NCBI GenBank assembly: GCA_037042915.1
Contig: CM073198.1
Location: forward strand, 248,001-312,000
Source of the DNA: Auricularia sp. M13
Taxonomy: Eukaryota; Basidiomycota; Agaricomycetes; Auriculariales; Auriculariaceae
Direction of reading: 5' to 3'
Length of the DNA: 64,000 nucleotides
Both the position numbers and the translations under genes were made by a program. The notes under the pieces are model-generated. The model did not search any database. It saw only the letters and a program-made list of their open reading frames with translations, and was not told the origin of the DNA. Below, in pieces: positions 11,060-34,173 of this stretch. The stretch's first letter is position 1; each line of letters starts with the position of its first letter.

Positions 11060-13282
11060 ATGCCTCCCAGACGCCCTCCAGCTTCTGTTGACCCCGCTGC
11101 TGCCCCAGCCTCCGCCCCAGCTGCTGCTCATCTATCTCGTGCCCTCCGCTCTGCCAGCCGTGTCCAGGGTGCTGCTGTGCCGCTCTCCGACTCTGTGGAG
11201 CCTCAGGCAGCTGTGGGTGCGGGTTCTCGAGGCCGCAGTCAACCTGGCAGTCAGGCCGCTACTCCGGCTGTGAGTAGGGCCCCCAGCCGCGCTCCCAGTC
11301 GTGCTTCTTCGCATTCTCGTCAGCCTACTGGCTCTGTTTCTACTGCTGGTGCTTCTCTGCGGGGCAGGCGCCCGCGTATTTCTCAGGCACATGCTGAGCT
11401 GATCGAGGAGGACATCCCTATGTCACCGGAGCTCTCCACGGAGATGCAAGACGAGCTGAAGGCGTTGCAGACGGTCTTAGGTGTGTGTGGCAGTCATGAG
11501 ATTACGCATTTTCTTACAGATTAATTACAGACAAACGTGCTCGGTCTTGGAGGTCGCCTGTATACAAGTTCTTTGAGCCTCCTCGCATCGTCTATCACAA
11601 CGGTGGCGTCGCGCAGGCGTTCTCTTGCTGCAACTGTGATGCTGTTGTTCACCGTATGCAGGATACGCTGGATAGCGCCTCCACGAGTAACCTGCGCGCT
11701 CATGTGAGCACCTGCTCAGGCGCTGATGAGCTTGGTGCTGCCGAAGCTGCTGCTGCGCTTCAGGAGAAGTACCTTGGCCGGGCCCTCACAAACCCGGAGA
11801 TGAGGTGTGTAGTACCTTTGAGACGTGGGCAACACTTATGCTGGCACAGGCTGTACGTTGTGCGCTGGGTTGCACAGGAGCTGCGCCCCATTTCCATTGT
11901 TGAAGATCGTGGCTTCCTCCGCATTGTCAAGGCGGGTCGCCCTACGCTCTGGATCCCGTCACCGACTACGATTATCCGTGATCTGAGCAAGATTTATCAC
12001 CAGGCATCGGCTCACATCTGTAAAACGCTTGAGGTGAGCTGTATGTGACCCGTGCGCAGCCCATGACTGAGCTTGCTCCAGGCTGTTGAGCAGCGCATCC
12101 ACATAACGTCTGACGCTTGGACCTCGCCTAATCAACTCTCTTTTGTGGCCTTTTTCGTTCATTATTGTTTTGAGGGACGCATGCGCCACTTTCTGCTGGA
12201 TATTATCGACCTTGCTCAGGTACGCCTCTCTGGATACTGGTATATCTAGCTTGTACTCAAAATATATAGTCGCACACGGGCTCGCGCCTTGCAACGGTGC
12301 TGCTTGCCCTTCTTGATCGCTATGGTCTCACCGATAAGGTGTGTTCTTTGTCTCAGGATGTGAGACGTCTGATAATTGCGCAACAGTTCATGGCCACGAC
12401 CCTTGACAATGCAAGCAACAACCGGACCATGGTTGCTTCCTTGGAGCGGCACATTGGTGCAACCTTCAAGGGCGAGCAAGCTCATGGTAATTGCTTTGCG
12501 CACATCTTGAATCTCATCGCCAAAGCCATTACTGCCTCATTTGAGCGCAAAGCTGCGGTTGATGCAGAGGACGATGAGTTTGAGCTTCCAGACTACGGGC
12601 TTCATGATGCTGAGGCTCTCGCCGAAGCTGATGAGGCTGATATGGAGGCTGACATGGCGCAGTTGCTTTTCCCCATTGACGAAGAGAGTGAGGAGGACAG
12701 TGATGAAGGCGACGGAGCTCGACGTGCTCAGCTTGAAGCCGACGCTGCTGGCATTGCTGCGAGTCTTTCCAAGGTACGCTGCTGTGCGCACATCATCACT
12801 GCTGACTGGATTGGAGTAGATTAGAAAGCTCGCCGTTGCTGTTCTACGCTCTCCAACTTCGCTGCGCCCTGCTTGGTTTGCTGTGCTCACTCAACTTCAA
12901 CTTCCGTTGCGGAGAATCCCTCGTGATGTTCCAACACGCTGGAACTCGACCTACATGCTGCTTAAGTGAGTCAACTTCGTCTATCTCACTGCCGCTGGTG
13001 CTGTCTAATTATTTGAAGCTTTGCACTGCAGTACCGGCGTGCGATTAGCGACTTTTGCTACCAGCAAGGTCTCCGACAGTACGAGCTGTCTGATGCGCAA
13101 TGGGAGACTTTGTCAAAGATGCAAGACGTTTTGCAGGTACGCACCTCACTCTCTACCGCAGCTATCAATTACTCAAGCCTGTGCAGATATTCTGGGAGGC
13201 AACGAAGTTTTTCTCACAGACCGACTTTCCGGGGATCTGCTATGTCTTGCGGTCCCTTTACAGCATCGACAGTGCACCATAG
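11060..13282 (+). pseudogene. hAT transposase, N-terminal two thirds
   Basis: Multi-exon transposase starting at ATG 11,060. In order: Pro/Ala/Ser-rich N-terminus; a BED-like zinc finger (FSCCNCDAVV ... STSNLRAHVSTC, about 11,620-11,715); LYVVRWVAQELRPISIVEDR; the first catalytic aspartate block ITSDAWTSPN (about 12,105); the conserved CFAHILNLIAKA; an acidic linker (EESEEDSDEGD); VPTRWNSTYMLLK (about 12,945); and LSDAQWETLSKMQDVLQ then FWEATKFFSQTD (about 13,195). The frame ends at a TAG formed exactly at the KDZ boundary (13,279-13,282 region), so the KDZ insertion, not point decay, removed the C-terminus from this transcript. Exons up to that point read well. Confidence 0.9.
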
Positions 13283-13349
13283 GCTGCCCCAAAATGGACC
13301 GCTAAGGTGCAATGCTCCGCATGATCGGATCCACCCAACAGGCCGCCCA

Positions 13350-14660
13350 GAACGTGGCGCGCCATGGCACACCATCGAGCCTGTGGATTGCCGGGCTTAT
13401 GATGTAAATCCCGCATCTGCCCTGCCATGCCATGCCCGCAGTTGGTGCCTCAGAAAAGGTGATGGCGTGCCAGTCGCGCAGAGCCAGCTGCGAAGTTCAC
13501 ATTGCAAGTCCTTATATATATATCTCCTGACCGCCGCATACGGCTTGCGAGCCCACGAGTGATCCAATACCAAGTATTGCGGTAGCTAATACTGGCGCCA
13601 CGCTGGGCCGCAAGGTATGGCCATGAAGCATCGTCGCGGCGGTCAAGGGATATGGCTTTGCTCTTGTTTGTCCCTACGCTCTCGCTCCGCTCTCCATCAA
13701 TCTGATTATTCATGACGTCGTCATCGTGTGTGCAACTTGCGCTGGCGTTCACTTCGCTCCAGTAACGTGGTCACTTCAATGCTTTCCAAACTGCCCGACT
13801 GTGCACATCGTGGGCTTGCTCCTCGCCCGTGGCATGCCATCACAACGACAACCTGAACGCGCAGCTATGGCATGACAGCGTCAATTTTTGATTGCAGCTA
13901 CCACGGCCGGCCGTGGCACGCCACAGTCAAAGGTTGATGATCGTGTCAAACCCGGACCGACGAGGCGCGCCATTACCGGCGTCTACGTGGCATGCCATCG
14001 CCATTCGAATCGCCGATAACAATGCCGTGGCACGCCATGGCTTGCTCTGCACGGACAATCTATGGCGCGCCATCAACGTGTTCTATGGCGTGCCATCAAC
14101 TTGCGCTATTCTATGGCGCGCCATGGCAGAGCTCCATTCCATGGCACGCCACCGCCGCGTTCTTCACCGTCTATCTCCCTGACGCTTTGCTTCAGACTAT
14201 CGTCCACCGCCGCATTCTCGCGCACATCATTTCCGTACCTCTGCAATGGATTGCTCACTGCATCTGCTGTGTTTTGCTCGCTCCTAATCGATTTCCTTGC
14301 ATTGCTGACTGATTTAACCACTCTTCCGCATTAAGCTCTGTGAGACTGCCACACTCAATGACTCTAGACAGCAGCTTTTGTGCGCTCTAGGTGCTAGGTG
14401 CTCTGCCGACGGATTTCAGGACCGATATTCTTTTGTGATTCGTCCCACTGCTCTGCTCTCATGGCGTGCCACTGCGACTTCTCTGCTCTCATGGCATGCC
14501 ACCGCGCTGCGATCGATCAAAAGCCATGGCAAGCCATCGTTCATCCGAACGAGTCTTGGCGTCGTCTCTGCTCTCATGGCATGCCACCACGCTGCGATCG
14601 ATCACAAGCCATGGCACGCCATTGTTCATCCGAACGAGTCATGGCGTGCCACTGCTGCAC
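13350..14660. repeat. Left subterminal array of TGGCRYGCCA palindromes
   Basis: About 20 copies of the 10-bp palindrome family (TGGCGCGCCA, TGGCATGCCA, TGGCACGCCA, TGGCGTGCCA), often followed by T, at irregular 20-90 bp intervals. Between them is otherwise unremarkable DNA; 13,990-14,150 is densest. Single copies continue at 15,504, 15,772, 15,801 and 16,152. No protein is convincingly encoded in 13,311-15,075. Confidence 0.9.
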
Positions 14661-15075
14661 TCTCTATCGTTCGTCCGAACAACTCCATGGAACTATGTGG
14701 TACACTATGGCCGTAATGCTAGTCGCCAGTAAATGGCATCCGGCGCAAGAAATACACAAGGAAGCGGTCGTCGGCGATCTCGACGTTGGTCGCGACATTG
14801 GCCGATGGTGATGAGCTGAGGCGCAACATCGGCGCTTCACGATTGAGGCGCAGCATACCTGCTGTGTGTGCACAGGCTCGTCGCTGAGAACGGTTCTGAG
14901 CAATCTTAACATCGAATTTCAGTCTCTTGTGCTTTAGTAGAGCCTCGGAATGTTATGGATGTATTGGGAAATGAACGACATGAATGTATGAGCCCCACGG
15001 CGACAAAATGTCCATCATATCTGGCAACGTCCCTAGTAAGTCGAGTATCTTTGCGGGATAGACTGCACAGATATC

Positions 15076-15429
15076 TCACCAGTCCAAGTCACCCTGCGCC
15101 TCTGCAAGTGCGATTTCGGCCGTGGTCGCAATGTTGAGCTCCACGGCGTGGCGGAGCAAGCGAGCAATCAATTCATCCAGCTGCGCCTGCCTGCGCTGAA
15201 TCGCCGCCTTCATCCCTTCGAAGGTCCTCTCGATTTGACGCAGCTCGTTGTCCGGCTGCTGGAAGTTGAAGATATCCAGTAGCTGCTGGTCGATTTCCTG
15301 GAAGGCGTTGTCGGTGCCGCGTTCGAACGCAGTCCTGAGCGTGAGGAAGAGCCGGAAGTACATGAAGATCGGTACACGGCGTGTCCTTCGCGGTGCGTTT
15401 TCTCCCTGAGCTGAAGTCGTTTCTGCCAT
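15076..15429 (-). CDS. KDZ cargo 1: small helical protein, 117 aa
   Basis: Intact single-exon frame from ATG 15,429 to the stop at 15,076. No known domain recognised. After a basic start (APRRTRRVP) the protein is predicted mostly helical with heptad-like spacing (FQEIDQQLLDIF, LRQIERTFEGMKAAIQRR, LDELIARLLRHAVEL), suggesting a coiled-coil or oligomerising protein. It lies between palindrome arrays and opposite in direction to cargo 2. Its style (short, basic tip, helical) resembles cargo genes at 31.4 and 32.4 kb, but I see no clear homology between them. Confidence 0.6.
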   Translation of the reverse strand: MAETTSAQGENAPRRTRRVPIFMYFRLFLTLRTAFERGTDNAFQEIDQQLLDIFNFQQPDNELRQIERTFEGMKAAIQRRQAQLDELIARLLRHAVELNIATTAEIALAEAQGDLDW

Positions 15430-16109
15430 TTACACAGCGAGGGGGGCGGGTTGTGTGGCGATATGGAGAGTCGTGGACAACGTCCGGTGCAGGCACGCTT
15501 GATGGCGTGCCATGTTATCCTTATCTCAATCGCAGATCGCCATCAGACTTAAGAGCTCTTGATCAGTCTTGATCCTTGAGAGCGAGTGTGGGGTGCCACA
15601 GTGGACAATCACCACAAAATGCCCAATTTCCATCCGTTCTTTCTCTTTCTTGTGCCGTTCAAGCATCTTGTCCTTCTGAGATTCTGCAGGTATACCGTGA
15701 AATATGTGCCGTGATGACCTTTGCGCTCGGGGCACCAGTAATAACGGAGTCCATTGAGCAGCAGCAGTCTGTGGCGTGCCACAATGCTCAAGACGAGCTT
15801 CCATGGCGCGCCATAAGATCTCAGTCATATGAAGATCCGCAGCGTATAGGATCTCATTTCCAATCGTCGGCTCATATGGCGCAGACTGCACATGGCCGTG
15901 GCCGCACGTCCGATATTGATCCCATGACAAATCAATGACAACAAGCCTCGCCCTTCTACTTACTGCTACGGACGATGGAGTTACTGCCAATAATTCCGTG
16001 CCTCTGGTCAGAAAATTTCCGTCCCTGTAGACCAGATTGCTCACTCAAACTCCAGGTTTACTTCTTTGATCGTCCCTAACGATCTCAGTGCACCACAGCC
16101 AGTGATCTG

Positions 16110-16719
16110 ATGGCCATCCATTCGATCCGGTTGCGAACCAGCTTTGCGCGTATGGTGTGCCACGACCCTTATAATAAAGTCCTGCTTCGTGATACAGCAT
16201 TTCTCGCCTTCATGAACCAGTACAACTTTGCTATTCTCCGCCCCCGCATGCAGCGCACGCCGTCGATCTGGAACTTGTTCCAGCTTCACTGGCACACTCT
16301 CAATGCCGTGAAGGCTCCGGACGGTCAGAGTTCCATAGCCCAGATTCTATGCAGCGCTGACAAGTCGCGACAGAGTCCTTCTGCGATTACCTCGAACGCG
16401 CGCGCAACGACTACCACGCTGCTATCAGCGGCCTGCCACGGGGCAGAAAGAACGCGCTTTACGCGCGCCTCCTGCATGCTCGCACGAAGCCGGCATTCGA
16501 TCTCTTCTTTTATCGCTTCGTTCGGACCGTGCGAAGGAAGAACGATGGTGAGTAGTTAGTATTCCTGTGTTCTTTCCCCGCTGACAGTGCATCACAGAGG
16601 ACCAGGATGAATACAGGACCCGCGCTGTGCAGACCTTTATCGAGACCCACGCTTCGATGGACGAGCAGGCCTTCGAGGACTTCAAAAATGTCCTTGCGGC
16701 TTATTACGCGCTGAACTAG
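16110..16719 (+). CDS. KDZ cargo 2: short WNLFQ-family protein
   Basis: Spliced gene; the start is uncertain (16,110 or an internal ATG near 16,212). Exon blocks: MQRTPSIWNLFQLHWHTLNA (about 16,250-16,310); after an intron ending in CGCGACAG, FCDYLERARNDYHAAISGLP and a basic, aromatic stretch (KPAFDLFFYRFVRTVRRKN); a donor GTGAGT near 16,549; and a last exon DQDEYRTRAVQTFIETHASM ... AAYYALN ending at 16,719. The order W-N-L-F-Q, then a Tyr-rich E-Y-R/D-Y-L-E helix, matches the middle of the large cargo protein at 26.6-31.3 kb, so the two look paralogous, this one lacking the Pro/Gln repeat and the C-terminal half. Function unknown. Confidence 0.6.
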
Positions 16720-16870
16720 GCATTCTGCTCTGTATCGTCCTGTATAGCGTGTGGTCTCGCTTGCGTCATGCAAATTTCATCTTGTTTGCCCGCTGATAAT
16801 TCCCTGAGACGCCTGTGTATGCAGCGCAAGAACTTATCCCATGAGACAAAAGCTTTGGCATTTTGTCTCG

Positions 16871-17270
16871 CTTTGTGGCATGCCATGAGATCAGAATCTC
16901 CTATGTGTGGCATGCCACACACTCGTATCCCGTCCACATCCAGTCCGTGGTACGCCATGAGAGCACCTCGCTTTGTGGCATGCCATGAGATCAGAATCTC
17001 CTATGTGTGGCATGCCACACACTCGTATCCCGTCCACATCCCGTCCGTGGTACGCCATGAGAGCACCTCGCTTTGTGGCATGCCATGAGATCAGAATCTC
17101 CTATGTGTGGCATGCCACACACTCGTATCCCGTCCACATCCCGTCCGTGGTACGCCATGAGAGCACCTCGCTTCGTGGCATCCCATGTGACATCTCCCAT
17201 CAGAATCTCCCATGTGTGGCATGCCGCGGAGTCGCGTTCCATCCAGATCCCGTCCGTGGTACGCCATGAG
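16871..17270. repeat. 100-bp tandem repeat built on palindromes
   Basis: A unit of exactly 100 bp (CTTTGTGGCATGCCATGAGA at 16,871, 16,971 and 17,071; CTTCGTGGCA at 17,171) repeats three times nearly perfectly plus a diverged fourth. Each unit has two TGGCATGCCA sites and one TGGTACGCCA. Single sites continue to about 17,370, next to the 3' end of the KDZ transposase gene. Confidence 0.93.
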
Positions 17271-17460
17271 ACGTCTCCTATCACAATCTCTCATTCGTGG
17301 CATGCCACGGAGTTGTATCCCCGGCCGTGGCAAACCATGCGAAGTTTCCTTTGCCAGCGTGTGGCATGCCATCAGACTCATATCCTCTCCCATTGTGCAA
17401 GACCCGCGCCAACGTTGATTATCCTGAAGTCAATGCAATGGTAACAATTTCTTGAACCTC

Positions 17461-20400
17461 TCAATCGGAGTCACTATCGCTTATCTCAATGACAGCAATC
17501 ACCTTCCCCGACGCGGACCTGGCATCTTCTACGACTCGAAGTCTGCGCAGCATGTTCACCATTGTCTTTCGCCAGTTCCCCATCTCGCGCTCAGCCAACT
17601 GGCTCGGCGAGTCGTGCGCAATGAGGCTAACTGCATCGGCCGCGGCGAACGGGCCGCAGTCGTAGCTGTTGCTCTGTCGGACCCCGCGCTGAATGAAATC
17701 GCATGTGATCAACCTCGTCAGCCGATAGTAATACAATTAAGGGACACGAACCTTTTCCGGATTCCACACGAAGGATTTGACGTCTAGCCCGGGAACGAAG
17801 TTCGTCTCGTAAATCTCCAGCAGCGAGCGTGTAAGTTTCTCGAGCGGTGGTGCGAAAACCTTGTTGTTCGCGTAGCTGTCGTAGTATGAGATAGCGCGTT
17901 GCAGCCAGTGCACCTCGATCAGCGTCCAGTGAGCGGGATCCCTCACATGGCCAAATATCAGCCATTTCCGGCAGTCCTTCGGGTGGAGCAACTTGGATAC
18001 GTTAGGCAGGCCAAGCAGAAACTACTAATAACAACATACCTCCTCGAGTGCGGACATGATGAACTGCTTGTTCGTCTCCTCCGCAGTCGAGTGGCCGGCT
18101 TTGATGGCAGCGAGGTAGGTGGCGACGTCTAGAAGCGCACGGGAGTGCACGATGCTAACGTCATTCGCGCCCATACGCATACGTTCGCTCTCAGCGACGA
18201 CGGCGAGACCATCCCCGCTCATCCACCTGGTGCGCGCGTCTATGCGCTGCAAGTCTTCGTCGGCGCAAGTGAATCGGCCAGCCCTGTAAACCACACGCTC
18301 GAAAGTCTTTTTCCGAGCGGAGGAAGCTGCTGGTGCTGGTTCTTGCTGCCGCACGCAAAGCTCGCTAGCAGCGGTGACTTGAACCTCCTGGGACTAGATA
18401 CTCGATTTTAGTTCCAGCTTTCGACGGTGCAGTTTGGCGAGAACGCGTGCAACGCGAATACACGTACCGTGCTCTCGACTTCAACCTCCATGCTCTCATC
18501 CTTGATCTTGTCTACATTCTCGTCAAGGAACTAGCATTGCGGCGAAATACATTAGCCGGGAACAAGTGTGTGACGCAAACGTACCTTTTGGACATCGTCG
18601 ATGTCAACCCGAGGCGTGTCTCGTTCGAACACTGTAGAAGCCGCCTCGTCAACATCTCCCTCAGACTGAAGTTCGTCGAACCAGTCTGCCTCAGGTTCGT
18701 CCTCGTCGTCTCTGTCTGAGTACGCGTCGGACGCATCGTCGGACGCATGATCGTCAGTGCCCTCATGTGTCACGGTTGGTTCAGGTTGGCTGTCGTCGAC
18801 GCTGACAGAAGCCACGACCATAGCTGAGTTGGCGTCTAAACCGCGCCAAAACCTCTGCGTGAGTTCGGCGCTGAGTGCGAGATCACGTGACCACGCGTCA
18901 CGCAGGTGGTTGTGCACCTCGCGACGGCGACCGACGGCCAATCGAAAACTCTCGTCGACTTTACGGTCATATAAGTAGGATATGGCCTAATGGAACTATC
19001 ACGCACCAGTCAAGTCCTCAGCGTTGTTGCGCAATATCTCGGCCTCCTCGGCCCACCAGTCCCGCAAAGCGTCCACCTCCATCTCAACGCGCTCGATCTC
19101 CTCCACACACCGACGCTTCTCGAGCAAAGCCGTCACTCCACGTCGCACGTTCTCGTCGGTCAGGTAGCGCGGGAGCTGCGCCTCGTCTTGGGGCCCTAGA
19201 CCCGGGTCCTCCTGCCAAATGTCGTCGTCGACATCCAGTTTGAACAGTTTCTTGGCATCCAGCTTGCGGGGAAGCCGGATCCGACCCGGCGGCTTTTTCC
19301 CCTGACGGGCTAAAGTGGCCATTCGGTCGACAATCTTGTTGAATGCGGAGACTTGCGCAGAAATCGTGCGCTGCCGCTTGTGCACGAGATCCTTTGTTTG
19401 CGCGTGCTCCTTGGCCTCTTCGCGGTTATCAGCTCAGGAAAAATCACAGCTGGCAGAACATACCAAGAATTTGATGACGATAAGCCCGTTCGAGCTTACG
19501 GTGTTCAAACTTGTGCGCGATTAGGGTCTTGCGGATCTTGACGCGCTGGGCGCGAGCATTGACGCGCGAGCGAAGGTACTCGTTACCCCGCATATCCTCC
19601 AATCTCCGGCACTGTTCCGTCCCAAGAGAAGCCTGCCATCCATCGATCTTGGACTGCGTAGCCTTGATCTCTGCGCGCGCGGAGTCGATACGAACCGTGA
19701 TTGTGTGAGTCTCAGACGCGGTCAATTTGTGAGCTTTTCGAAGCTCAGCGCGATCCTCCTTGACTTGCTCCTTGAGTTCGTCGATAGTACCAAGGGCGGT
19801 CAGGATTTTGTCTATAATCTTGTCCGCCGCCGTCTGAGTTTGACCTGGGATCGACAGTCAGCTTCTAGTATGGAATATAGCTTCTCTGCGAGCGTACGAG
19901 TGTTCTTGACGAGCTGCTCAGCTATCTGAGCGTCCCAGTATTTGCCTAGCTGCGCTTCTGTCTCCCCGCTCGCACTCACGATCGCCTGCGCCTCGCCAAG
20001 ACGACGCTTAGCCGCGAGATAGCGCTTCCGCAGCCACTGGCCCAAGCGCCACATGTTGCTGTAGTCGAAGGCTTGCATCTGGCGGTCAAGAACAAAAAGT
20101 CGACGGTGATACTGGAGCATGATGTCAGCACATTAATCTTGGACAATTACAATCCCCTCACCCCGCTCACGCGCAGACAAGCGATGAGATGCCGAATACT
20201 ACTCCAGAAACGCTCGCAGCCTTCCCCATCGCTAACCGAACCCGTCGCGTTTCCGCGGATGAAAGACGACTTGGCATGGCCACTGGTGCCCGTAAGCGTG
20301 AAATACAGACACGCCGAACGTCAGGCGGTCCGCGACATCTGGAATAAGGCCCCACTTGGTAATAGATGAGTTTACAGGTCGCGATAAGATAAATCACTTA

Positions 20401-23985: not shown

Positions 23986-24101
23986 TACTACATGCAGACA
24001 GCCGCAATGACCAGATACAGGTGCCTTCTCCCACAGCGAGCTCTGAAGGCATAAATAAACAAATGAAACAAAGATATAAATGCAAGAAGCTCACCGCGCG
24101 G

Positions 24102-25776
24102 TCAGGCATTCTCGCGTACGTGCGCGGCGTCACCAGCGATCGATGGTTCTGGCGACGAGTCCGAGATATCAGCGTCACCAGAGATCGACGGTTCCGGCGA
24201 CGAGTCCGAGATATCCACGAGATCCGGCACGTCCTCGTCAACCTCGACATGCGAGTTTGCCCTGGCGAGACGCGTGCGCCAGTACTCCGCGGTCATTGCC
24301 TCGACGCGATCAACAATGCGCCGTATGTCCTCGTACGACATGGTGGTCTCAGCAGAGGCGGAGGTAGCGGGGGCGGGAGCGGATGGATCAGCGGCGGGGA
24401 CGGCGGCGGCGGCGGAAACGACGGTGGACGGAGCGGCAGCGGCGGCTGGAGCGGCGGGCCAACGGCAAATGCGGACTGACTGTTGAACCAAGCTCTCGTC
24501 GATGTTGGCCCTGGCGCGCTGTTGGTACGAATCCTGCTCGTAATCCCTGAAGACCCGGTCGAAAGCGGCGCTGAGTACTTGCACGTTGCTAACTGCGCGG
24601 AGCGATTGCGCAGTGCTGGCAGCGGGCAGAGACCCGGTGCTGGCGGCGGCGGGAGACGCGGCGGGAGACGCGGCGGGAGACGCGGTGGGAGACGCGGTGG
24701 CAAGAGACGCGGCGTTGCCGTCGGCGGCGGGAGACGCGGCGGGAGATGCGGTGGCAAGAGACGCGTTGCTGTCGGCGGCGGGAACGCGGGCGGAGACGCG
24801 GCGGGAGACGCGGTGGCAAGAGCGTTGCGGCGGCGGCGGGAGGCGGCGGGGGAGACGCGCGGGAGACGCGGTGGCGGGAGACGCGGCGTTGCCGCCGGCG
24901 GCGGGAGACGCGCGGGAGACGCGGTGGCAAGGCGGCGGCGGCGGGGACGGGAGACGCGGGAGACGCAGTGGCAAGAGACGCGGCGGAGACGCAGTGGCGG
25001 GGAGACGTGGCGGGAGACGCAGTGGCAAGAGACGCGGCGTTGCTGGCGGCGGCGGGCGGAGACGCGTTGCTGGCGGCGGCAGGAGGGCCGAAGAGTAGTA
25101 CAGGCGGTTGCATGTTTTCCGGCAGGCTGTCCTGCCATGCTGGAAGGCGATCCCGAACACGCAGATACTGAGCAAGATGACGCTCGATGCGAGTGTCGCT
25201 CAGGATATGCCAGAACGTGGATGGCACGTAAGCACCGTCCGCGCGCCGGCAAGCGTTGCAGGGCTGGTTCCTCGAGCAGCCTGGCGTCTGGCACGCTTGG
25301 ACGCGGATGATGAACTCCAGGTACGCCGGGGCGTAGCACATCTCGTTGACAATGTCGCCATCGTTGGGGTCCGAGCCATTGGAGCTGCCAGGACCGTCTG
25401 TTTCCTCGCCAGCGGCTGCGAGCGCATTGCGGCGTAGGATGTCAGCGACCATATCGTCGTAGAGCTTCTCGAGGTCGCGGGTGTCGTCGTACCAGCCGTA
25501 AGGAGACGAACGCCATTCAGCGGGCTCCCAGCCTGAGCCGATCTGGTTGGGATCGTGGGTGTCAGGCCAGCCGTGGTTGTCCTCAGAGGAGGTGGTACGT
25601 TCTTCAACGGGCCTGCAACGAGTGAGAAAGCGGACAGCATTGGGTTATTGAGCTACTGACGATGCCGTCCGTTCTTCCTCTGCGCCAATACCGTTGGGCG
25701 CGTTGGTTGAGGCCATGGGACGAACGAGGAGATGGGCAAAGTCAAAGCAGCCTCCGAGACCCTGTTGGTCAGCCAT
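24102..25776 (-). CDS. KDZ cargo 4: cysteine-cluster protein with minisatellite and SIM-like repeats
   Basis: Starts at ATG 25,776 (MADQQGLGGCFDFAHLLVRP); an intron (GTAGCT...TTGCAG) leads to a second exon with GWEPAEWRSSPYGWYDDTRD, then a Cys cluster CQTPGCSRNQPCNACRRADG (Cys-x4-Cys-x5-Cys-x2-Cys) and TRIERHLAQYLRVRDRLPAW. From about 25,080 to 24,620 follows a G/C-rich minisatellite. After it the plausible frame is a different one: LSAAFDRVFRDYEQDSYQQR, an Ala/Pro-rich stretch, MSYEDIRRIVDRVEAMTAEY and a duplicated tail ISDSSPEPSI ... ISDSSPEPSI ending at 24,102. So either an intron lies inside the minisatellite or slippage has broken the frame. The two tail repeats look like SUMO-interacting motifs. 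Function unknown. Confidence 0.6.
24620..25085. repeat. GC-rich coding minisatellite
   Basis: Many degenerate copies of GGCGGGAGACGCGGTGGCAA and shorter GGGAGACGCGG units. They read as Ser/Ala/Pro or Arg-rich peptide in all frames of the minus strand, so open frames on both strands here are compositional and should not be counted as genes. Confidence 0.9.
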
Positions 25777-25894
25777 AACGACCAACGTGACCAGGTACGC
25801 ACAGAATTCCGAGCAGAAGACGATGAGAGATGTGGGCCTGTGCACAGAAATTGGTTGCTGTGCCCGGACCGCGCGCATCGCCGCGCCGTCCGAC

Positions 25895-26535
25895 TCTCAC
25901 GATGGCATGCCATCGCGAGCTGATATTGAGGATGGCGCAGCCATGGCACGCCACGACGCTCGCGATGGCATGCCATCCTGAGTTGATATTGAGTATGGCG
26001 TACCCATGGCACGCCAGGGCGTACCCATGGCACGCCAGGGCGTCTCTGGTTCACAAACTCATGGCACGCCATATACTGAGGCGCAATGCTCACCTCCGTG
26101 CGCATCCTGCAGCCAGCAGCTGATACTTCCGTGCCAGTCGACTTATATTGACCAATTGAGCAATGCCTACGCGAAAAATGTCCAGCGACAAGAGCAAAGG
26201 ATTCAGGCTTTAACAACTCACCATGGCATGCCACAGATTCGCGCCGCTCGGTTAGATCAGATTAGCATACGCTTCGCGCTGTTACTGAGGCAATCGCGTG
26301 TTCCGATACGAGACTAGTGATGCACGGGGTAGTGATGTGCAAGATGCGCGGCGAATCCCGAACCGATTTTCCGTCCCATGCGGTCACAACGCTCAACTCG
26401 CGCAACGATGTGGCGCGCCATCAGCCGCGCAACGATGTGGCGCGCCATCAGCGCCGGTCACGCCGAGCCATGGTGCACCTGATGCGTATGCGGTATCTGT
26501 GGCATGCCATAAATCTGTATGGCCTGCCATAAATC
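25895..26535. repeat. Palindrome array between cargo 4 and cargo 5
   Basis: About 12 TGGCRYGCCA sites (for example at 25,904, 25,942, 25,967, 26,007, 26,027, 26,061, 26,223, 26,411, 26,440, 26,501), including a local duplication GTACCCATGGCACGCCAGGGC. The array fills the divergent promoter gap of the two flanking genes. Confidence 0.88.
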
Positions 26536-26577
26536 CTTCTGGTACGTTGCCTGACTTCGCCCCTCGCCCAGCTGACC

Positions 26578-29500
26578 ATGGTATCTACTCGTCGTCAGGC
26601 GAAATCGGCCGAGGCACCTGCAGCTCCCTCGCAAGCGCCTGCAGCTCCCCCGCAGGTGCAGGTATTGGACGCGACAAGTGGCAACAACGGAGCCGACGCG
26701 ATTGCGACGCCGAATATTCAAGTCGAAGGAGCGCCTCACGCTGTGAGTACCCAAAACCAACTCCATTCAGACGCTGAACTCGAGTGCAGAGCAGCAAGTT
26801 GACTAAGAAACGGAAGCCAGCGGTCAATGCAGAGCCTCTTGTGCGTTCGCAAATTTCAATCAAATTGCTCAATGGTACTAACTGCTCTATAGGTTGCCCT
26901 TCCCACAAAAAAGAAGAAACCTGCCCCCGACGAGGAAGCCGGTCTCTCAGCGCCCGACGACGAAGAGGGTCCCTCAGCGTTCGGCGAAGCAGTGAGTCGT
27001 TTTCGACGCTGCGTGTCAACAACCGGGTTTGACCTGAAGCAGAGTACGCGAGGTCGCGGTCGTGGCCGCGGTGGTGCCCGTGGTGTCACGACGCGTGCCG
27101 GTGTTCGCAAGCCGGCCAACACTACGGTCAAGTCGAAGGCCGCGAAATCCAAGTCGAAGGCCATTGTCGCTGAGAGCACGATGAACTCAGACCACGATGA
27201 GAACAGTGAGTTGAATATTTCGCATTCTATTCAACCTCTCTCTCTGACGCAGTCATAGCCACAGTTCCATCCACTTCGCGGAGGCTGTCGGCACCGGCAC
27301 CTGCTCAGCTCGCAGCCCCGCCGATGCAGCCCGCGCCTCCTGCCCAGCAGCCCGCGCCACCAACACAGTTCGAGTCGACGCAGCAGCCCGCGCCGCCTGC
27401 CCAGCAGTTCGCGCCGCCAACGCAGCCCGCACCGCAGCCCGCGCTGCCAACGCAGCCATTCGCTCAGCAGTTCGAGTCGACGCAGCAGCCCGCGCCGCCT
27501 GCCCAGCAGTTCGCGCCGCCAACGCAGCCCGCACCGCAGCCCGCGCTGCCAACGCAGCCATTCGCTCAGCAGCCTGCGCTGCCAACGCAGCCATTCGCTC
27601 AGCAGCCTGCGCTGCCAACGCAGCCATTCGCACAGCAGCTGCCCGCGCTGCCGGCCCAGCAGTTCGCGCCATCGACACAGTCCGTGTCACTGCTGGTCTC
27701 GCCGCCTACTCAGCCTGCGGCCGAGATGCCTATCGCGCAGCAGCAGCCCGCGCCGGCGATGCAGCAGCCCGCGCCGGCAACGCAGCAGCCCGCGCCGCCT
27801 GCCCAACAATTCGCGCCGCCAACGCAGCAGCAGCAGCCCGCGCCGGCGATGCAGCAGCCCGCGCCGGTAACGCAGCAGCCCGCGCCGGCAACGCAGCAGC
27901 CCGCGCCGCCTGCCCAACAATTCGCGCCGCCAACGCAGCCCGCACCGCAGCCCGCGCTGCCAACGCAGCCATTCGCACAGCAGCTGCCCGCGCTGCCGGC
28001 CCAGCAGTTCGCGCCATCGACACAGTCCTGGTCTGTCAGCAGCCGTGCCGCCGACGCACGGCGTCGCCAATTCCCGCCGCCTACTCAACCTGCGGCCTCG
28101 GCGCCATTCGCGCAGCAGCTGCCTGTGCCAGCGATGCAGCAATTTGTACAGCAGCAGCCCGCGCCGACGCACTTCGTGTCGCCGCAGTTCCCGCCGCCGA
28201 CTCAGCCCGCGCAGCCTACTCAACCTGCAGCCTCGGCGCCATTCGCACAGCAGCAGCCCGCGCCGACGCACTTCGTGTCGCCGCAGTTCCCGCCGCCGAC
28301 TCAGCCCGCGCAGCCTGCCCAGCAGACCGGGGCAACAACGTCATCCTCGCCCTCACCGCCACTGCAGCCCGCTGCCGCGCCTGTAAAGCCGACGCCAGTA
28401 ATGGTGAATGAAGGCGGGCAGACGAAGCCCAAGGCCCGCAGGAAGAAAGCCGCGACCAAGGAGGCAACGCCCGCCCCACCGCCCGCCTTTCCTCAAGATA
28501 ACGGCGACTCCGATGGCAACGACGATACTGACACGCGAGAGACGAAGCCCGGTCCTCTGTCCGCGGAGGACGCTGCAGCCTTCGACGCAAAGATCGCAGA
28601 GCTTGAGAAGTATGTCATGGACTTCTCGGCGAAGACGGGCAAGTCGACCAAGTATCTCTGGGAGCGCACACGCATCAAGCTCAAACTCCAGCGCGACCGG
28701 TCGACGTGGAATCTATTCCAGGAGTATTGGTGTCTGCTCAATAAGCGCGACGAGGCGAATGGTACGTTGACTGCAGCTCGTTCTCCGTTTTCACTTTCCA
28801 TGTCTGATTGACTCCCAGGAGAAACACTTGACGAATATCGCGAGCGCAGGTCGCGCGCTTACGACGCTGAATATAGCTCTCTGGATGAGGCGGGAAGGCA
28901 GCCAAACGGCGCTTCCTACTCGATTGGGCGGACAAATACCATGAAGAAGTTGCCAAGGACGTTCTCGAAAACGGTGAGACTTTTAAAGTCATGGCGAGGC
29001 TTAGCCAAGAAATCGAGTCAATGGTAAATTCTTTAATGTGCTTCTTACTTGACGATATCTTGACGATTCGGCAGACACGACCGTACTTCACCAACTACAA
29101 AATTGCGCTTTTCGGCTTCATGGTTTGCGTCAACCAGGGCGATGTCGCAGGTTGTGCCATGAATGGCTGCTTCTCGAACACCGATGTCGCGCGCCAGTTC
29201 ATGCGCACTCTGCGCGTCAACATTCGGAATCTCACGGGTGACTTCGCCAGCCTGTTCAAGTGAGTGCGACATTGGCGCTGCCGAACCGATTTGTTGACGC
29301 GAGTTCAGCGTGCACCTCATGAATGAGGCTGACAAGAAAGACTGGAGCCAAGCCGCATACGCGCGGTACAAGAATATATCGAACCCGACGGCCCGCCGCG
29401 GTGTCGTGAAGGAAGCCTTCCTCTTCTGGCAGGGTACGCGCGGTTTTGGTGCGGAGAAAATGTTCTAACAATGTGATATCTCAGACTGTTTGTACGGCGA

Positions 29501-31263
29501 AAAGGGCGTACACAAGGACGTGCAGTGGGGCGACTTGGAAACCATGGTCGTCAAAGTCAAGAAGCGTGTTGTCAACTGGCCGGACGGCGCACCGCTGCCC
29601 AGCGAAAGCACGGTCGCGGTCGCTGGCATATGGACGAGGCGACGCGGCTTGTGCGCTGTATCTTTCAGGCGCATCGCCTCTACACGGACACGCTCGAAGA
29701 GCAGGAGGAGGTCGATACCTGGAAGCCCGCAGCACCGGGGCTCAACCCGGACGCACGAGACTTCAAGACCGTCCCTCTTGCAGAGTTCGACAAGTCGAAA
29801 GTCTTACGCTTCGAGGACATCCCTGAAGGTACAGCTACTACGCAAACGCTCATGACACTTGCTAATATTCCCTTTCTAGAGAACCTTAACTATATCAACA
29901 GCAATTGGGACGAGTGGTACAACACGCCCGTTTGGACGACGACCCGAGGGGTTGTCAAACTTCGCGTCAAGGACCTGGCAGAGAGGAAGGACCAGTACGG
30001 CAAGAGCAAGCTGCCACGCAGCATGCTCAAGCCTGCGGACCGTGTTATTCCCGGCTTCGACGATGACGCGAACGACGAGCGCAAGCAACCCATCAAGAAG
30101 TCGAAGCCGCAACGTGCGCGCGAGGCTAAGATGCGCGCGACCGATTCCGATGGCGAGCCAACGGGCGACAACAGGAATCCTGTTGGTGGTGGCATCCCCG
30201 CCGAGTCTGAGGACGAGGTGCGTTATGTCCTATGATCATCATCCAGCAAATCTGACGGCACGCAGGAACTGAATTTCATACCACTGGAGCGCGACGAATC
30301 AGAACCAATGAAGGTAGAAGTATGTATGCCTCATCCGTACTTATATTTGTATTTATTTTCCTTTGGCTGCAGGGTCCCACGAATGTATTGCCAGCGTTTC
30401 GACAGGTCGGCAGCGGCGCGCCATGGCCGCAGCAAGTCTCGAATGCAGACCCGCGAGTTGGCGATCAATGCACAGCAGGAACCGTCGTACGGAACGGCCA
30501 AGACGTTACTGCAGAGGCCGCTGGACCGTTGGTTCGACCCGCGCCTGAGATTCGGATCGAAGCGCCCAGCGACAACCGTGTCTACTCGCCAGCCCCCGCG
30601 CAGGCCTCTGGGCACCTTCCGCAGGCTGCGCATGCAGCATCATCCCCAACAGCGAACAGCCTCGCCGGCGCGCTCACGCTTCCGCCAGCGCCAGGCGCCC
30701 TTCCGTCTGTGTACCTCACGGTCGCAGGATTACCCGCTCAAGTGGCCGCCACGCCTTCCCCGTCGCCCTTGCTCTCCGACCCTCCCGTCGCGCCGCCCCC
30801 TGCAGCGTATCTTGTGTCGTCGTCGTCGTCGTCGCCGTCCAACACTCTCATCGCGCAGGCCCCTGGATCATATCAGGGAGCGTCGGCGTCCGACTCTCGT
30901 ACCAGCCAACAGAATGCCGGCGCTCTAGCCGTGCCAGATTCATCATCCGGGCAACTGACCTCGCTGCGCAACCCGCTGGGGCCCAATATGTCGGACGAAG
31001 AGGCGTTGGAGCAGGCTCGTCGGCTTATTCAGCAAGGCTACGTCATCTCGTGGCACCACCCCGATAGCACCTCGTATGGCAACACGAACAGCCACATGGG
31101 CACGCAGTACATGGGGGGCGCTGACCGACCCGGCTACGAACTCCTGGACCAGTCATTATTCGAGCTCACATCCGATCAGTCCAGTGCGTCCAACGGCGCC
31201 GACCACAACAATTTCTGGCAGCAGCCCTGGTTTGATAACGGTTCGGGCTTGCCACCTTCTTGA
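26578..31263 (+). CDS. KDZ cargo 5: giant Pro/Gln-repeat WNLFQ-family protein
   Basis: Large spliced gene (more than ten exons, of the order of 1,200 residues). ATG 26,578 (MVSTRRQAKSAEAPAAPSQ); short basic exons (KLTKKRKPAV, LPTKKKKPAPDEE); an AT-hook-like STRGRGRGRGGARG (27,042); a long Pro/Gln/Ala repeat region (27,324-28,330) built on QQPAPPAQQFAPPTQ; basic linker; then the conserved core TKYLWERTRIKLKLQRDRST with WNLFQEYWCLLNKRDEANGE, TRPYFTNYKIALFGFMVCVN, FMRTLRVNIRNLTGDFASLF, SNPTARRGVVKEAFLFWQ, VKKRVVNWPDGAPLPSE and ENLNYINSNWDEWYNTPVW; and a low-complexity Ser/Pro/Gln tail (30,373-31,263). No stop inside the blocks. The core resembles hypothetical proteins frequent in mushroom genomes; its role is unknown. 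AT-hook and basic patches suggest nuclear DNA binding. Confidence 0.75.
27324..28330 (+). repeat. Coding repeat, Pro/Gln-rich
   Basis: Imperfect tandem copies of codons for QPAPPAQQFAPPTQ and QPALPTQPFAQ, including long near-identical blocks (27,375-27,470 and 27,475-27,570). Frames on the minus strand through here (Arg/Leu or Ala/Arg-rich) are shadows. Confidence 0.9.
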
Positions 31264-31414
31264 CTGTGTTAATCTCCCATACAATTCGTTACAAAATAGA
31301 AGTTGGTGTTGCAAGGATATCATTACAGGACGAGTGTGAAAGCTAAGCTAGTTGTCGAGCTTTCTAGAAACCGATGATATGAGACGGGATGCGCGTACTA
31401 GAGATAGAAAAGAC

Positions 31415-31837
31415 TTACACTTGTACCCCCGCTTTTTCAAGACCAGCGTTCATGCAGCGAGTTATGAAGTTCTCTATGAATCCGTCCATGTCTTCGCGTT
31501 TCCCTGCATCTTGCGCAAGCAGGGTTTCGAGGTGCTCTTCGGTGCGCGAGAGGCTTTCGGTCATGAAAGTCGCCATTTTGTCACTAGCCGCACGCAAGTC
31601 ATTCGCCTCGGCCTCAAGGATATCGCACCGCCTTTGCAGGGTATCCCGCTGGGCACGAATACTGTCGCACTCTGCAACGGCGCGGCAAATCGTGTCCAGG
31701 TACGCAGTGAGCAACGATGGCTGCTGGGCCGAGCGAATATGAACCCGCAGCGCGGCGAATGCATCCTCGATGCACTGAGTATCGATGTGGTCATCGGTCG
31801 TGGGGTTGGGAGAATCAGGATGCGCAGTAGACGACAT
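31415..31837 (-). CDS. KDZ cargo 6: small coiled-coil protein
   Basis: Single-exon frame; I prefer the ATG at 31,837 (MSSTAHPDSPNPTTDD) over 31,876. About 140 residues. After a polar N-terminus, the protein is one long predicted helix with heptads (CDSIRAQRDTLQRRCDILEA, DKMATFMTESLSRTEEHLET) ending in GLEKAGVQV at the stop 31,415. No enzymatic motif. Convergent with cargo 5 (stops 150 bp apart) and divergent from cargo 7 across a palindrome array. Confidence 0.65.
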   Translation of the reverse strand: MSSTAHPDSPNPTTDDHIDTQCIEDAFAALRVHIRSAQQPSLLTAYLDTICRAVAECDSIRAQRDTLQRRCDILEAEANDLRAASDKMATFMTESLSRTEEHLETLLAQDAGKREDMDGFIENFITRCMNAGLEKAGVQV

Positions 31838-31914
31838 GAGGGAGGGAGTGGTGGTGAGAACAATGGGCTCCTTCATCCGACGAACGTGTTGATATGGTCA
31901 TTCGCAACTTCGAC

Positions 31915-32315
31915 ATGGCACGCCACTCAGACATATCACAGTGACCATTCTGGATGGCATGCCATAACAATTGCTCGTTACCCGTGGCACACCATGGAGA
32001 AATCGCTGCTTGCAGTGGCACGCCATGGAGAAATCGCTAGTCGCTTATGGCGCGCCACGCAGAGAGGGTCGCCATTGGAATGGCACGCCATGAAGAGACT
32101 GTGCTTCTGAGATCCCAATCTCATCATGCCGGATGGCATGCCATGCAAAGATGGGCTCTTGTAGCTGTGGCACGCCACAGGGAAATCACCCGATGCTCGT
32201 GGCACGCCACAGGGAAATCACCCGATGCTCGTGGCACGCCACAGATGATTAGCTGTTAGGGATGGCACGCCGTCGCAAGATTGCGCGGTGTTTATGGCAC
32301 GCCATGGTCTAGGAA
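31915..32315. repeat. Palindrome array between cargo 6 and cargo 7
   Basis: About 13 TGGCRYGCCA sites in 400 bp (31,916, 31,953, 32,018, 32,047, 32,081, 32,135, 32,168, 32,201, 32,231, 32,294 and others), with a locally repeated 33-bp unit ending GGGAAATCACCCGATGCTCG. Lies in a divergent promoter gap. Confidence 0.9.
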
Positions 32316-32384
32316 CCGGTTGAAATCGCATCCAGCACTGTCGGAACGGCGTTGACCTCATCCTTCCATAACCCATTCAGCACC

Positions 32385-32936
32385 ATGGACCCACACTCGC
32401 CGCCCGCATCGAGCGTGGCGGACGCTACCGCCCAAGAAACGCCGACCGCCACGGATACCCCAATCAGCGCCATGGACCCGGGCTTGCAGGCTGTGCCGAG
32501 CGCGGCGGCAGAGGCGACGGTGGCCCCAGGAACGCCAAAATCGCGCAAGCGTCCCGCCGACGGGCACGAAGGCAGCCCGGCTGCCTTCTACAAGCGCCAG
32601 CGCACGAAAGGCGACGAGGGGAAGAAAAAGAAGACCCGCACGACGTGGACGATGGTCGAGCGAAAGCAGGCCACCTGGAAGATGTTTCGCAACGACTGCA
32701 CAGAGTTCCTCGAGGGAAGAGTGACCGAGGAGGAGTGCGACGACTGGGACGGTGGCTTTGAAGAGATGTGCAAGTTCTTGGACGAGCGCGATAACCTGGC
32801 CGCGACGGAGATTGAGCTTCGCCACGAGATCAAGCGCCTGAACGGCCGCATCGAGGAGCTCGAAGCCGAGCTTGGCTTCATCAAAACGCGTGAGTCTTCG
32901 CTTCCGGTGACTCTGGGCAGTGAGAAAGCAGTCTGA
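32385..32936 (+). CDS. KDZ cargo 7: basic coiled-coil protein, paralog of cargo 8
   Basis: ATG 32,385 in a good context (CACCATGG). Acidic/Ser/Pro-rich N-terminus, then KSRKRPADGHEGSPAAFYKR (nuclear-localisation-like), a helix starting ATWKMFRNDCTEFLEGR, then DGGFEEMCKFLDERDNLAAT and a coiled coil IELRHEIKRLNGRIEELEAE. A GTGAGT donor occurs right after GFIKTR (about 32,890), so the real C-terminus may lie in a further exon; the stop at 32,936 assumes no splicing. Clear paralog of the next gene. Unknown function; architecture suggests a nuclear, dimerising DNA-binding or adaptor protein. Confidence 0.65.
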   Translation: MDPHSPPASSVADATAQETPTATDTPISAMDPGLQAVPSAAAEATVAPGTPKSRKRPADGHEGSPAAFYKRQRTKGDEGKKKKTRTTWTMVERKQATWKMFRNDCTEFLEGRVTEEECDDWDGGFEEMCKFLDERDNLAATEIELRHEIKRLNGRIEELEAELGFIKTRESSLPVTLGSEKAV

Positions 32937-33252
32937 CGCTTCCGATAGCTGCCTGAACTCCATAATATCGTGCCTCATCGTACTACGTGCATCGGCCTGC
33001 ACATTTCTTTGTATGTTGAATACGATTGAATTATCTTCATAGTATCTGCGGGCAAAACTTGAGAAGAAGTGAGAGAAATTCAAAGAAAGAAGTACCACTA
33101 TCGAGCAGAGTAATGAAGTGGCATGCCATGGTGTCAAATGCGGCTGGTGATGGATGGGTTCACGTTCATCACCGAACGCACTTTGACTTCGCCCACGCAA
33201 TGGATGACGCGTCGCTAGCCGCCCGACCACTACCTCTGCCGTTTCAGCGGCA

Positions 33253-33663
33253 ATGCCGTCGATCACAACGACGAGCTCTGGCAAGCGTCCCGCTGATGGG
33301 AGCGAAGGAGAACGACCGTGCGTGTCCTATAAGCGTCTGCGTGCGAGAAGGGAGGAGTTGCGCGAGCTTCCGATGGACGGCACTGAGTCAGTTCGCGAGC
33401 GATCGGCGAAAGCTTGGAAAATGCTGCGCGACGCCTCCACCGACATCATCGAAGGTCGAATGAACGAGCATTACAAAGAATGGGACCTAGGTCTGGAGGA
33501 AATGTTCGAGCTGATGGACGAATGCGACGAGCTGGCCGCGACGGGGGTCAAACTCCGTAAGGAGATCAAGCAGCTAAACGCGCGCCTCCAGAAGCTCGAG
33601 GATGCGATTTCAGCAGCTAAAGGTGTGTCGCTGTCTCTGGTGAAAGGGGTGGTTACGCGATAG
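33253..33663 (+). CDS. KDZ cargo 8: basic coiled-coil protein, paralog of cargo 7
   Basis: Frame from ATG 33,253 (MPSITTTSSGKRPADGSEGE) to 33,663. It shares with cargo 7 the series KRPADGxEG, Y-K-R-x-R, A-W-K-M-L-R-D, IIEGRMNE, LGLEEMFELMDECDELAAT and KLRKEIKQLNARLQKLE in the same order, but is shorter at the N-terminus. A possible donor (AAAG|GTGTGT) after the coiled coil means the last ~13 residues are uncertain. The two genes are a tandem duplicate pair, both with palindromes upstream. Confidence 0.65.
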   Translation: MPSITTTSSGKRPADGSEGERPCVSYKRLRARREELRELPMDGTESVRERSAKAWKMLRDASTDIIEGRMNEHYKEWDLGLEEMFELMDECDELAATGVKLRKEIKQLNARLQKLEDAISAAKGVSLSLVKGVVTR

Positions 33664-33690
33664 CAAGCTGACCTGCAAGCAGGCGTCTGA

Positions 33691-33765
33691 AGTTGGCTAT
33701 GTCGCCGTTTCGCAGCTATGTCGGGCTATGTCGCCGTTTCGCAGCTATGTCGCCGTTTCGCAGAG
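33691..33765 (+). repeat. Short tandem repeat, GCTATGTCGCCGTTTCGCA
   Basis: Three near-perfect copies of GCTATGTCGCCGTTTCGCA directly downstream of cargo 8. Not coding as far as I can see. The rest of 33,766-34,080 holds only palindromes. Confidence 0.85.
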
Positions 33766-34173
33766 CTCATAGATCATGTACACCGTTGCAAAAGAATATA
33801 TGTCCTATGAATCTCGAATACTCTCCTGCCCACATACGAAGGGTCCACGCGGCTGCAGTAAAGCAGACGCCATGGGATGATGCTTAGCAAGCATGAAGAT
33901 ATTCAATGGCATGCCAGTGCGAGTGGCAAAACAGTCTGGAGACGGATGGCGCGCCACAATACGGCGGTGGCATGCCAGAGGATAAGGTCACATGCTGGTA
34001 TTGAAAGAGATACTGTGGCGTGTCATGGCACGCCACTACCAAATCCACCTCTAGGATACATCATATCAAGGGACGGGATGGACCTTACTGGTACCTTGTA
34101 GAGACAGCCTGACCTCCAATTTGCCACTGGTGCGTTGGCTGCGCGTTCATGCTCGTGCCTAACCAAAATCTCA

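Follow-up and report, generated by a model that had tools for sequence, protein, structure and literature searches.

The window, a 64,000-nucleotide stretch of the Auricularia sp. M13 genome, carries, within a hAT gene, a KDZ transposon of the Kyakuja type. It is probably one member, now damaged, of a lineage of large elements of this type that move as whole units, with linked helper genes and with palindromes that are most likely protein-binding sites. The element spans window positions 13275-34115 (20,841 bp), as defined by breakpoints against a copy on C9 and against two hAT paralogues. The original prediction had placed the ends at 13281 and 34110; the AGGCTG hexamers recognized there are real, but the true ends lie 6 and 5 bp further out. 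The C9 copy (C9:73547-95874) and the window copy, on C6, are identical at 20,534 of 20,609 aligned bases (99.6%); their alignment breaks off at window positions 13275 and 34115, and the two insertion sites are unrelated, showing that the element has moved as a unit. CpG transitions are in excess among the substitutions separating the two copies (31 of 75). To the left of the insertion, the hAT gene (12642-13274, plus strand) was modelled with the help of paralogue comparison, and a Pfam scan of this flank gave no match; the right part (34116-34809, plus strand) carries a Dimer_Tnp_hAT domain (PF05699, 6.9e-21). The hAT paralogues on C2 and C7 (97-99%) are continuous across the insertion point and provide the element-free site. 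Together with the right flank, they bear out the earlier proposal that a KDZ element was trapped inside a hAT gene. Other elements are nested in the C7, C9 and C11 copies.

The ends of the element recur across the genome. The left end, CACCATAGGCTG (13275-13286, plus strand), is common to the C9, C4, C7 and C11 copies, and its 15-mer has 18 exact genome matches. The right end, which reads inward as (C)AGGTCAGGCTGTC (34104-34115, minus strand), has 13 exact matches as a 14-mer, all of them paired with a left end. Allowing one mismatch in the right-end pattern gave 41 matches versus 230 in the reversed control; this pattern is unreliable alone, and we therefore relied on the 13 exact matches and on pairing. 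Ends were paired at 18 of 29 left-end matches, the other 11 being unpaired; 11 pairs surround gene clusters, and seven lie 2.40-2.44 kb apart, delimiting short derivatives with the same ends as the large element. AGGCTG-type termini, which the original prediction expected elsewhere, thus recur as 18 paired sites in this genome, and the inverted match between the two ends is short and imperfect (8 of 12 positions, with AGGCTG in common, by eye). Exact target duplications of 7-8 bp flank six of the seven copies examined: GGCCGAA on C9, GGAGAGG on C4 (where a longer repeat is possible with the end shifted), CATTATC on C7 and GCAAAAG on C11, all of 7 bp, and, by eye, the 8-bp GTTGACCG on C5 and CGTTGAGG around a 2.4-kb copy on C9. 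The window copy is the exception. Whereas the C9, C4, C7 and C11 copies have CA..TG termini, its right junction is without the last G and without a target duplication, and 109-111 bp of hAT sequence present in both paralogues are absent there.

Between these ends, our gene models recover the full gene list of the original prediction (KDZ, two small helical ORFs, two WNLFQ proteins, a Cys-cluster protein, a coiled-coil pair and an MGRPPK protein), in the divergent and convergent layout that it had described. From left to right, these are gene H (15093-15429, minus strand), a small helical ORF that copy comparison finds only in C6 and C9; gene A (16110-16719, plus), a small WNLFQ protein of two similar units with a relative in C4; gene K (17461-22524, minus), the KDZ transposase with its predicted C-terminal Ulp1-type protease; gene C (23262-23985, plus), the MGRPPK protein; gene D, with a conserved Cys-cluster core at 25081-25488 (minus); gene E (26578-31240, plus; conserved part 28533-30217), a large WNLFQ protein; gene G (31419-31876, minus), a small helical protein with a relative in C7; and the coiled-coil proteins F1 (32385-32936, plus) and F2 (33253-33663, plus), the latter 44% identical to the former. 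No Pfam family was matched above cut-off by C, D, E, F, A, G or H. The models come from our own simple predictor, which uses sequence only and can mask a frameshift as a false intron, as happened in the window K; the C4 models are open, but come from this same predictor and are subject to the same masking. Both K and E are frameshifted in the window copy. Since K is frameshifted in the C6 and C9 copies alike, neither of these near-identical copies is shown to be autonomous. The frameshifts, the Ulp1-type domain and the palindromes described below were absent from the original prediction.

The transposase gene ends in a predicted SENP/Ulp1-type protease domain. Its KDZ catalytic region (20162-20869, minus strand) matches PF18758 at 6.3e-31 in a window exon and at 4.3e-60 in the C4 model, where a CxC cysteine cluster precedes it (CxC1 1.7e-10, CxC2 2.3e-6). 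The Peptidase_C48-type domain, part U of K (17464-18393, minus strand), matches PF02902 at 1.7e-9 in C4 and falls below cut-off in single window exons; CxC1, KDZ and C48 are all above the Pfam cut-off in one C4 gene model. Part U also matches SENP1 (1.4e-6), in an alignment that pairs HW, YYDS, Q and DCG and so includes the His, Asp, Gln and Cys that we take to be the active-site residues of C48 proteases. In a tree built from 32 sequences (30 fetched KDZ loci, the window and C9; two dropped for short coverage), and for this genome only, 12 gene-set KDZ sequences stand apart from 18 others. The genes are under constraint: dN/dS is below 0.11 for K (C4-C7, dS saturated) and 0.17-0.39 for C, D, E and F, values computed solely on aligned blocks that reach 35% identity, a restriction that biases them downward, and with dS near saturation.

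Several identities were considered for the other products. E and A have in common a unit with the pattern W-N-L-F .. W .. E .. Y .. R .. L, which is reminiscent of the divergent HMG domain that Iyer et al. reportedly noted in KDZ elements in 2014; for the E/A unit, neither Pfam (E<=10) nor PDB profile searches gave an HMG match. A primase-related protein was set aside as well, the PDB-profile matches being weak (E 0.09-0.7). A PDB search found no significant relative of D or C. A viral origin of E was rejected: pattern matching in viral contigs gave 112 candidates, of which not one held up, in a set that may leave out records near this genome.

The noncoding parts of the element are dense in a palindrome, TGG-N4-CCA. 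We counted 66 in the window element against 5.5 expected, 56 in C4 (4.0 expected), 39 in C7 (6.6) and 27 in the left part of C11 (1.1), compared with 6 in the rest of the window, where 10.8 were expected. These four members made up the enrichment test; nine other gene-set loci, mostly coding stretches, showed no enrichment. A gap of 4 is alone enriched, and TGG-N4-CCA ranks first among the listed half-site/gap pairs in C6 and C4. In the window element, TGGCNNGCCA palindromes cluster at 13355-17371 (27 sites), at 25903-26529 in the middle of the element before gene E (11 sites), at 31916-32304 (10 sites) and at 33119-34035 (five sites); 53 of 54 core sites lie outside exon models, the one inside being at 30151, as do all 24 listed sites in C7. 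The C6 and C9 copies show no substitution in 660 bp of palindromes, where only about 2.4 would be expected. The palindrome centre is GGCG in C7, unlike that of the other members, which is CRYG in C4 and C6. As to which protein might read the palindrome, C4 and C6, with their common centre, are most alike in C and in the second part of E but not in D, U, F or the first part of E, a weak comparison of three members.

Rather than being cargo, C, D, E and F seem to be conserved functional components of a single transposase lineage. In this one genome, homologues have a KDZ match no more than 20 kb away in 16 of 17 cases for C, 15 of 17 for D, 24 of 25 for E and 10 of 10 for F, and 7.0% of the genome falls within that distance. 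K (minus), C (plus) and D (minus) keep their order and orientation at all 15 loci having the three genes, with E on the plus strand at 14 of the 14 that have E; the loci counted are not independent, since several are duplicates of recent origin, and the protease is itself a section of K. The order comparison took in 26 loci, those of 95 KDZ loci with cargo matches nearby, and excluded C11:1735837, where a KDZ match within the nested C11 copy has F as its sole neighbour from the set. At 11 of the 26 the C-D pair is absent, and E is inverted at five of these. The original prediction, which described a mobile KDZ unit with cargo, expected such linkage and similar order, and would have been weakened by cargo regularly found away from KDZ genes or by termini absent elsewhere. 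Neither was seen in this genome; the defined gene set and readable ends stand, but "cargo" seems a poor description of the genes.

We infer cut-and-paste chemistry, in which the K transposase would recognize the ends CACCAYAGGCTG..CAGCCTGACCTG, excise the element and insert it with a 7-8-bp duplication, the 2.4-kb derivatives being moved in trans by the lineage. The conserved helper genes would be C, D, E and F, joined in some members by A and G. The palindromes are most likely bound by an element protein, for which C or E would be the first candidates, and this protein could mark the element's own DNA, which would either be kept expressed against host methylation or have a transposition complex built on it. 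The protease would strip SUMO from silencing or repair proteins at the element. Extended further, this scheme could amount to a fungal self-recognition code, in which a transposase-SUMO protease and its helpers read a repeated palindrome and lift silencing, while the code and its reader diverge from member to member, as an independent counterpart of VANDAL/VANC; we offer it tentatively, as possible and rather doubtful.

The palindromes and helpers could instead serve transposition itself, the sites being bound by the transposase or by a helper so that the complex is assembled or regulated, without any anti-silencing. Subterminal repeats of En/Spm elements are bound in just such complex building and regulation, the sites here are dense near both ends (27 at 13355-17371 and 15 at 31916-34035), and the helper genes travel with the transposase. 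However, the third cluster lies mid-element, and the motif centre differs in C7 despite nearly the same ends. We regard a role in transposition alone as a serious possibility, if short of probable. It is unlikely that the palindrome is no binding site at all and arose incidentally, as tandem duplication and CpG decay acted on neglected noncoding DNA. Some sites do lie in tandem repeats (16867-17271, 32164-32242), and the centres CGCG, CACG, CGTG and CATG can be linked by CpG transitions, but most sites are outside such repeats, and enrichment of gap 4 alone, in four members and with a different centre in C7, fits this poorly.

Other explanations concern the gene set as a whole. Captured host genes, carried as Starship-like or gene-capturing elements would carry them and serving the host, might account for the large size and for products without a known family, yet the constant order at K-C-D loci and the few copies off KDZ (one of 25 for E, two of 17 for D, one of 17 for C, none of 10 for F) make this very unlikely. 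We give almost no credence to a small KDZ transposon that landed by chance among unrelated genes or nested elements: nesting is indeed seen in three copies, but the copies are collinear, and the paired ends contradict such a history, ends and duplications enclosing the whole set in several copies.

Under our preferred reading, of a KDZ lineage moving with its helper genes, a KDZ transposase gene that appears to stand alone can belong to a recurrent machine of several genes, and proteins C to F, which lack a Pfam family, could move from orphan genes to transposon parts. The element also suggests a candidate route for fungal transposon self-recognition and methylation resistance without a TET/JBP gene, and its ends, duplications and short derivatives are material for a mobility assay.

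Multi-protein KDZ elements, with extra genes beside the transposase, were reportedly described in outline by Iyer et al. in 2014. This qualifies the suggestion that the system might be undescribed; in this genome, the recurrent unit itself is confirmed by order and ends; the new observation for these elements is the dozens of dispersed palindromes in the four members examined. Ulp1-bearing Mutator-like elements of plants also carry a SUMO-protease-like domain on a DNA transposon; here it is on a fungal KDZ transposase gene. The class of the element points to Kyakuja because of the CA..TG ends and the duplications, of 7 bp in four copies and 8 bp in two. Kyakuja elements of Agaricomycetes, the subject of Iyer et al. 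(2014) and Kojima (2025; PMC12730594), likewise have a KDZ transposase with a cysteine cluster, CA..TG ends, extra genes and 7-bp duplications, as in four members here. Ours differ from them in the 8-bp duplications of two members, in having an Ulp1-type domain as part of the transposase gene, in the C-D-E-F set and the palindromes, and in their short imperfect inverted ends, where Kojima reports no terminal inverted repeats for Kyakuja. Unlike TET-bearing Kyakuja elements, the window element yielded no TET/JBP gene: Tet_JBP was absent from the Pfam matches of scanned genes, and by eye none of the 19 Tet_JBP genome matches falls inside the window element or inside any of the other 17 pairs of ends. 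Starships (PMC12134995) are also large multi-gene fungal DNA elements; here the transposase is KDZ, the gene set recurs in order, and Pfam scans of the element's genes gave no tyrosine recombinase (Starship captain). From sequence alone, and relative to VANDAL/VANC in Arabidopsis (PMC5735166), our fungal element differs in its KDZ transposase and in a motif that is palindromic and largely dispersed, and resembles it in being a DNA transposon of several genes whose noncoding parts are dense in a short motif, one that differs between related families.

A KDZ transposon of 20,841 bp occupies window positions 13275-34115, and its limits are given by a second copy (C9; C numbers denote contigs of this 52-Mb, 14-contig genome and the copies on them, C6 being the window copy). 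The alignment with C9 spans 13275 to 34115, with 20,534 of 20,609 aligned bases the same (99.6%) and 33 indels, one a 1,673-bp insertion in C9. The original prediction of a 20.8-kb KDZ transposon with a set of cargo genes is thus confirmed; its AGGCTG ends proved definable, but the true ends lie 5-6 bp farther out. The element was also said to be trapped in a hAT gene, and indeed hAT paralogues on C2 and C7 lack it and are continuous across the insertion site, while the right hAT part matches PF05699 (6.9e-21); a Pfam scan of the left part gave no match. At the right junction, 109-111 bp are missing relative to these paralogues; the final G of the element is gone too, and there is no duplication. 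Elsewhere in the window, one retrotransposon with integrase-like and Tf2-1-like SH3 matches is present twice (38032-41522 and 61209-64000; listed blocks 97-99% alike), with further copies in the C11 region. A gene-sized repeat occurs at 7980-9872, 46830-48608 and 54345-56239, and two ORFs scanned from it had no Pfam match at 0.01. Arrays of a TCCGTGCGCA-type repeat, perhaps part of another element, lie at 6015-6188 and 7218-7392; the left 13 kb of the window holds 20 copies of the 10-mer, counting both strands.

The element moves as a unit. Exact target duplications were found at six of the seven copies examined, the window copy being the sole miss: GGCCGAA next to the C9 ends, GGAGAGG at C4 (a shifted end would make it longer), CATTATC at C7, GCAAAAG at C11, and, read by eye, 8-bp duplications at C5 (GTTGACCG) and at a short C9 copy (CGTTGAGG). 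The left-end 15-mer has 18 exact matches in the genome, and 29 in all when one mismatch is tolerated (reversed control, 5). The right-end 14-mer has 13 exact matches; with one mismatch allowed there were 41 vs 230 for the control, so right ends were counted only if exact or paired. All 13 exact right ends have a left-end partner, and 18 of the 29 left matches are paired within 70 kb, leaving 11 unpaired. Eleven of the 18 pairs flank KDZ gene clusters of 14.8-66.3 kb, and seven span 2.40-2.44 kb, forming a family of short derivatives that share the large elements' ends. Among these seven, the two ends were read for one, C9:765244-767668. The 66-kb copy at C11:1676969-1743275 has a perfect 7-bp duplication and, from its size and its matches, seems to contain other nested elements. 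The C4 copy (locus L026, near C4:1159924) stops about 58 bp short of where a Dicer-type gene (helicase, Dicer_dimer and two RNase III stretches) is predicted to begin; it therefore sits in what is likely the promoter of this RNA-silencing gene.

Eight or more cargo genes had been predicted beside the transposase, and eight were modelled with a simple in-house predictor, in the order H- (small helical), A+ (small WNLFQ), K- (KDZ), C+ (MGRPPK), D- (Cys cluster), E+ (large WNLFQ), G- (small helical), F1+ and F2+ (coiled coil). In the C4 copy, K is modelled as one gene encoding 1,441 aa and has Pfam matches, all above cut-offs, to CxC1 (1.7e-10), KDZ (4.3e-60) and Peptidase_C48 (1.7e-9); when single exons of the window copy were scanned, C48 fell slightly under the cut-off. 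A two-row profile of this C-terminal, Ulp1-type protease part retrieved SENP1 at 1.4e-6, with HW, YYDS, Q and DCG aligned. None of C, D, E, F, A, G and H matched a family above Pfam's cut-off; a PDB search with C, D, E and the unit common to E and A gave no significant relative. For A there is a relative in C4 and for G one in C7; H was seen in C6 and C9 only. The window copy is damaged: set against C9 and C4, it shows indels that shift the reading frame in E and, between conserved motifs, in K. A different frame-shifting indel affects K of C9; in C4 both K and E are modelled as open, in the output of a predictor that can hide a frameshift.

A KDZ family search of the genome gave at least 149 matches (150 of 163 candidates scored) at no fewer than 95 loci. 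Most of the cargo lies within 20 kb of a KDZ match (E at 24 of 25 clustered loci, D at 15 of 17, C at 16 of 17, F at 10 of 10), a zone that makes up 7.0% of the genome; the protease part (24 of 25) is not independent, since it belongs to the K gene. The exceptions are one D+E locus (C7:2.73 Mb), one D (C5), one C (C10) and a protease piece inside the nested C11 copy. Orientation was compared at 26 KDZ loci that have cargo or protease matches in their vicinity, several of these loci being near duplicates. The arrangement K-, C+, D- holds at all 15 loci that have the three genes, with E+ at all 14 of these that have E. The remaining 11 comprise one locus with C and E, one with neither, and nine with E but without C and D, E being inverted at five of the nine; loss of a gene and divergence below detection would look the same here. 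In a midpoint-rooted KDZ tree of 30 sequences (the 30 best-scoring fetched loci, the window and C9, less two dropped for short coverage), 12 gene-set sequences stand apart from 18 others, whose branch has local support of 1.0. Comparisons between members put dN/dS under 0.11 for K (C4-C7) and at 0.17-0.39 for the genes C, D, E and F, in blocks picked by identity with dS near saturation. Some KDZ loci that do not belong to the gene-set group (C1:2702290, C1:2671087, C2:5057231) likewise have Peptidase C48 matches close by, so the link between KDZ and protease may predate the gene set.

The noncoding DNA has its own signature. The sequence TGGCNNGCCA occurs 54 times in the element and not at all in the 43 kb of window around it; 51 copies have a purine-pyrimidine centre, and 53 fall outside exon models although these cover 61%. 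When TGG and CCA were spaced by 0-8 bases, clear enrichment appeared at gap 4 only. Observed vs expected counts of TGG-N4-CCA were 66 vs 5.5 in C6, 56 vs 4.0 in C4, 39 vs 6.6 in C7, 27 vs 1.1 in the left part of C11, and 6 vs 10.8 in the rest of the window. Among 576 combinations of half-site and gap compared in an open scan, TGG-N4-CCA came first in C6 and C4; in C7 it was second to CTG-N6-CAG, which shares its axis. Most centres read CRYG in C6, C4 and C11; in C7, 20 of 39 read GGCG, CGCC (the reverse of GGCG) or GGCC. A stretch at the right end of C11 contains 18 copies with gap 4, and 0-3 with each of the other gaps. No excess was found at nine other gene-set loci, mostly coding stretches, or in 20 KDZ-only stretches (68.8 kb). 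Between C6 and C9, CpG transitions account for 31 of 75 substitutions and 31 of 49 transitions, CpG making up 18.7% of bases, and this excess suggests methylation. None of the 75 substitutions falls in a palindrome (about 2.4 expected; not significant).

By analogy with VANC on VANDAL21, we infer that an element protein may read the palindrome, and that the protease may take SUMO off silencing proteins. For C and the second part of E, the most similar pair of members is the one with a common palindrome centre; the other parts do not show this, and the pattern is weak. The main alternative is that the palindromes act in transposition itself.

KDZ elements, according to what Iyer et al. reportedly described in 2014, often encode additional proteins, a divergent HMG domain included. 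A literature search, with most subscription papers and all supplements outside its scope, gave no recognisable description of the KDZ-Ulp1 gene, the gene set or the palindrome, and no paper treating KDZ and Ulp1 together. KDZ terminal motifs of Marasmius oreades are stated to be characterised in a supplement (PMC8290104), and in Pleurotus CxC2 clusters precede intact KDZ elements (PMC7641404). Kyakuja, the KDZ class proposed for our element, is characterised by 7-bp duplications and by CA..TG ends that lack inverted repeats; the same account describes families bearing TET/JBP (Kojima 2025, PMC12730594), whereas Pfam scans of genes and genome matches yielded no TET/JBP gene in the window element. 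Arabidopsis VANC proteins bind a 9-base motif dense in noncoding VANDAL21, where methylation is then lost, and related families use other motifs (PMC5735166). The original interpretation was right in kind, with class and function now adjusted: beside these systems, the element is a variant within a known kind, bearing an unusual noncoding signature that is open to test.
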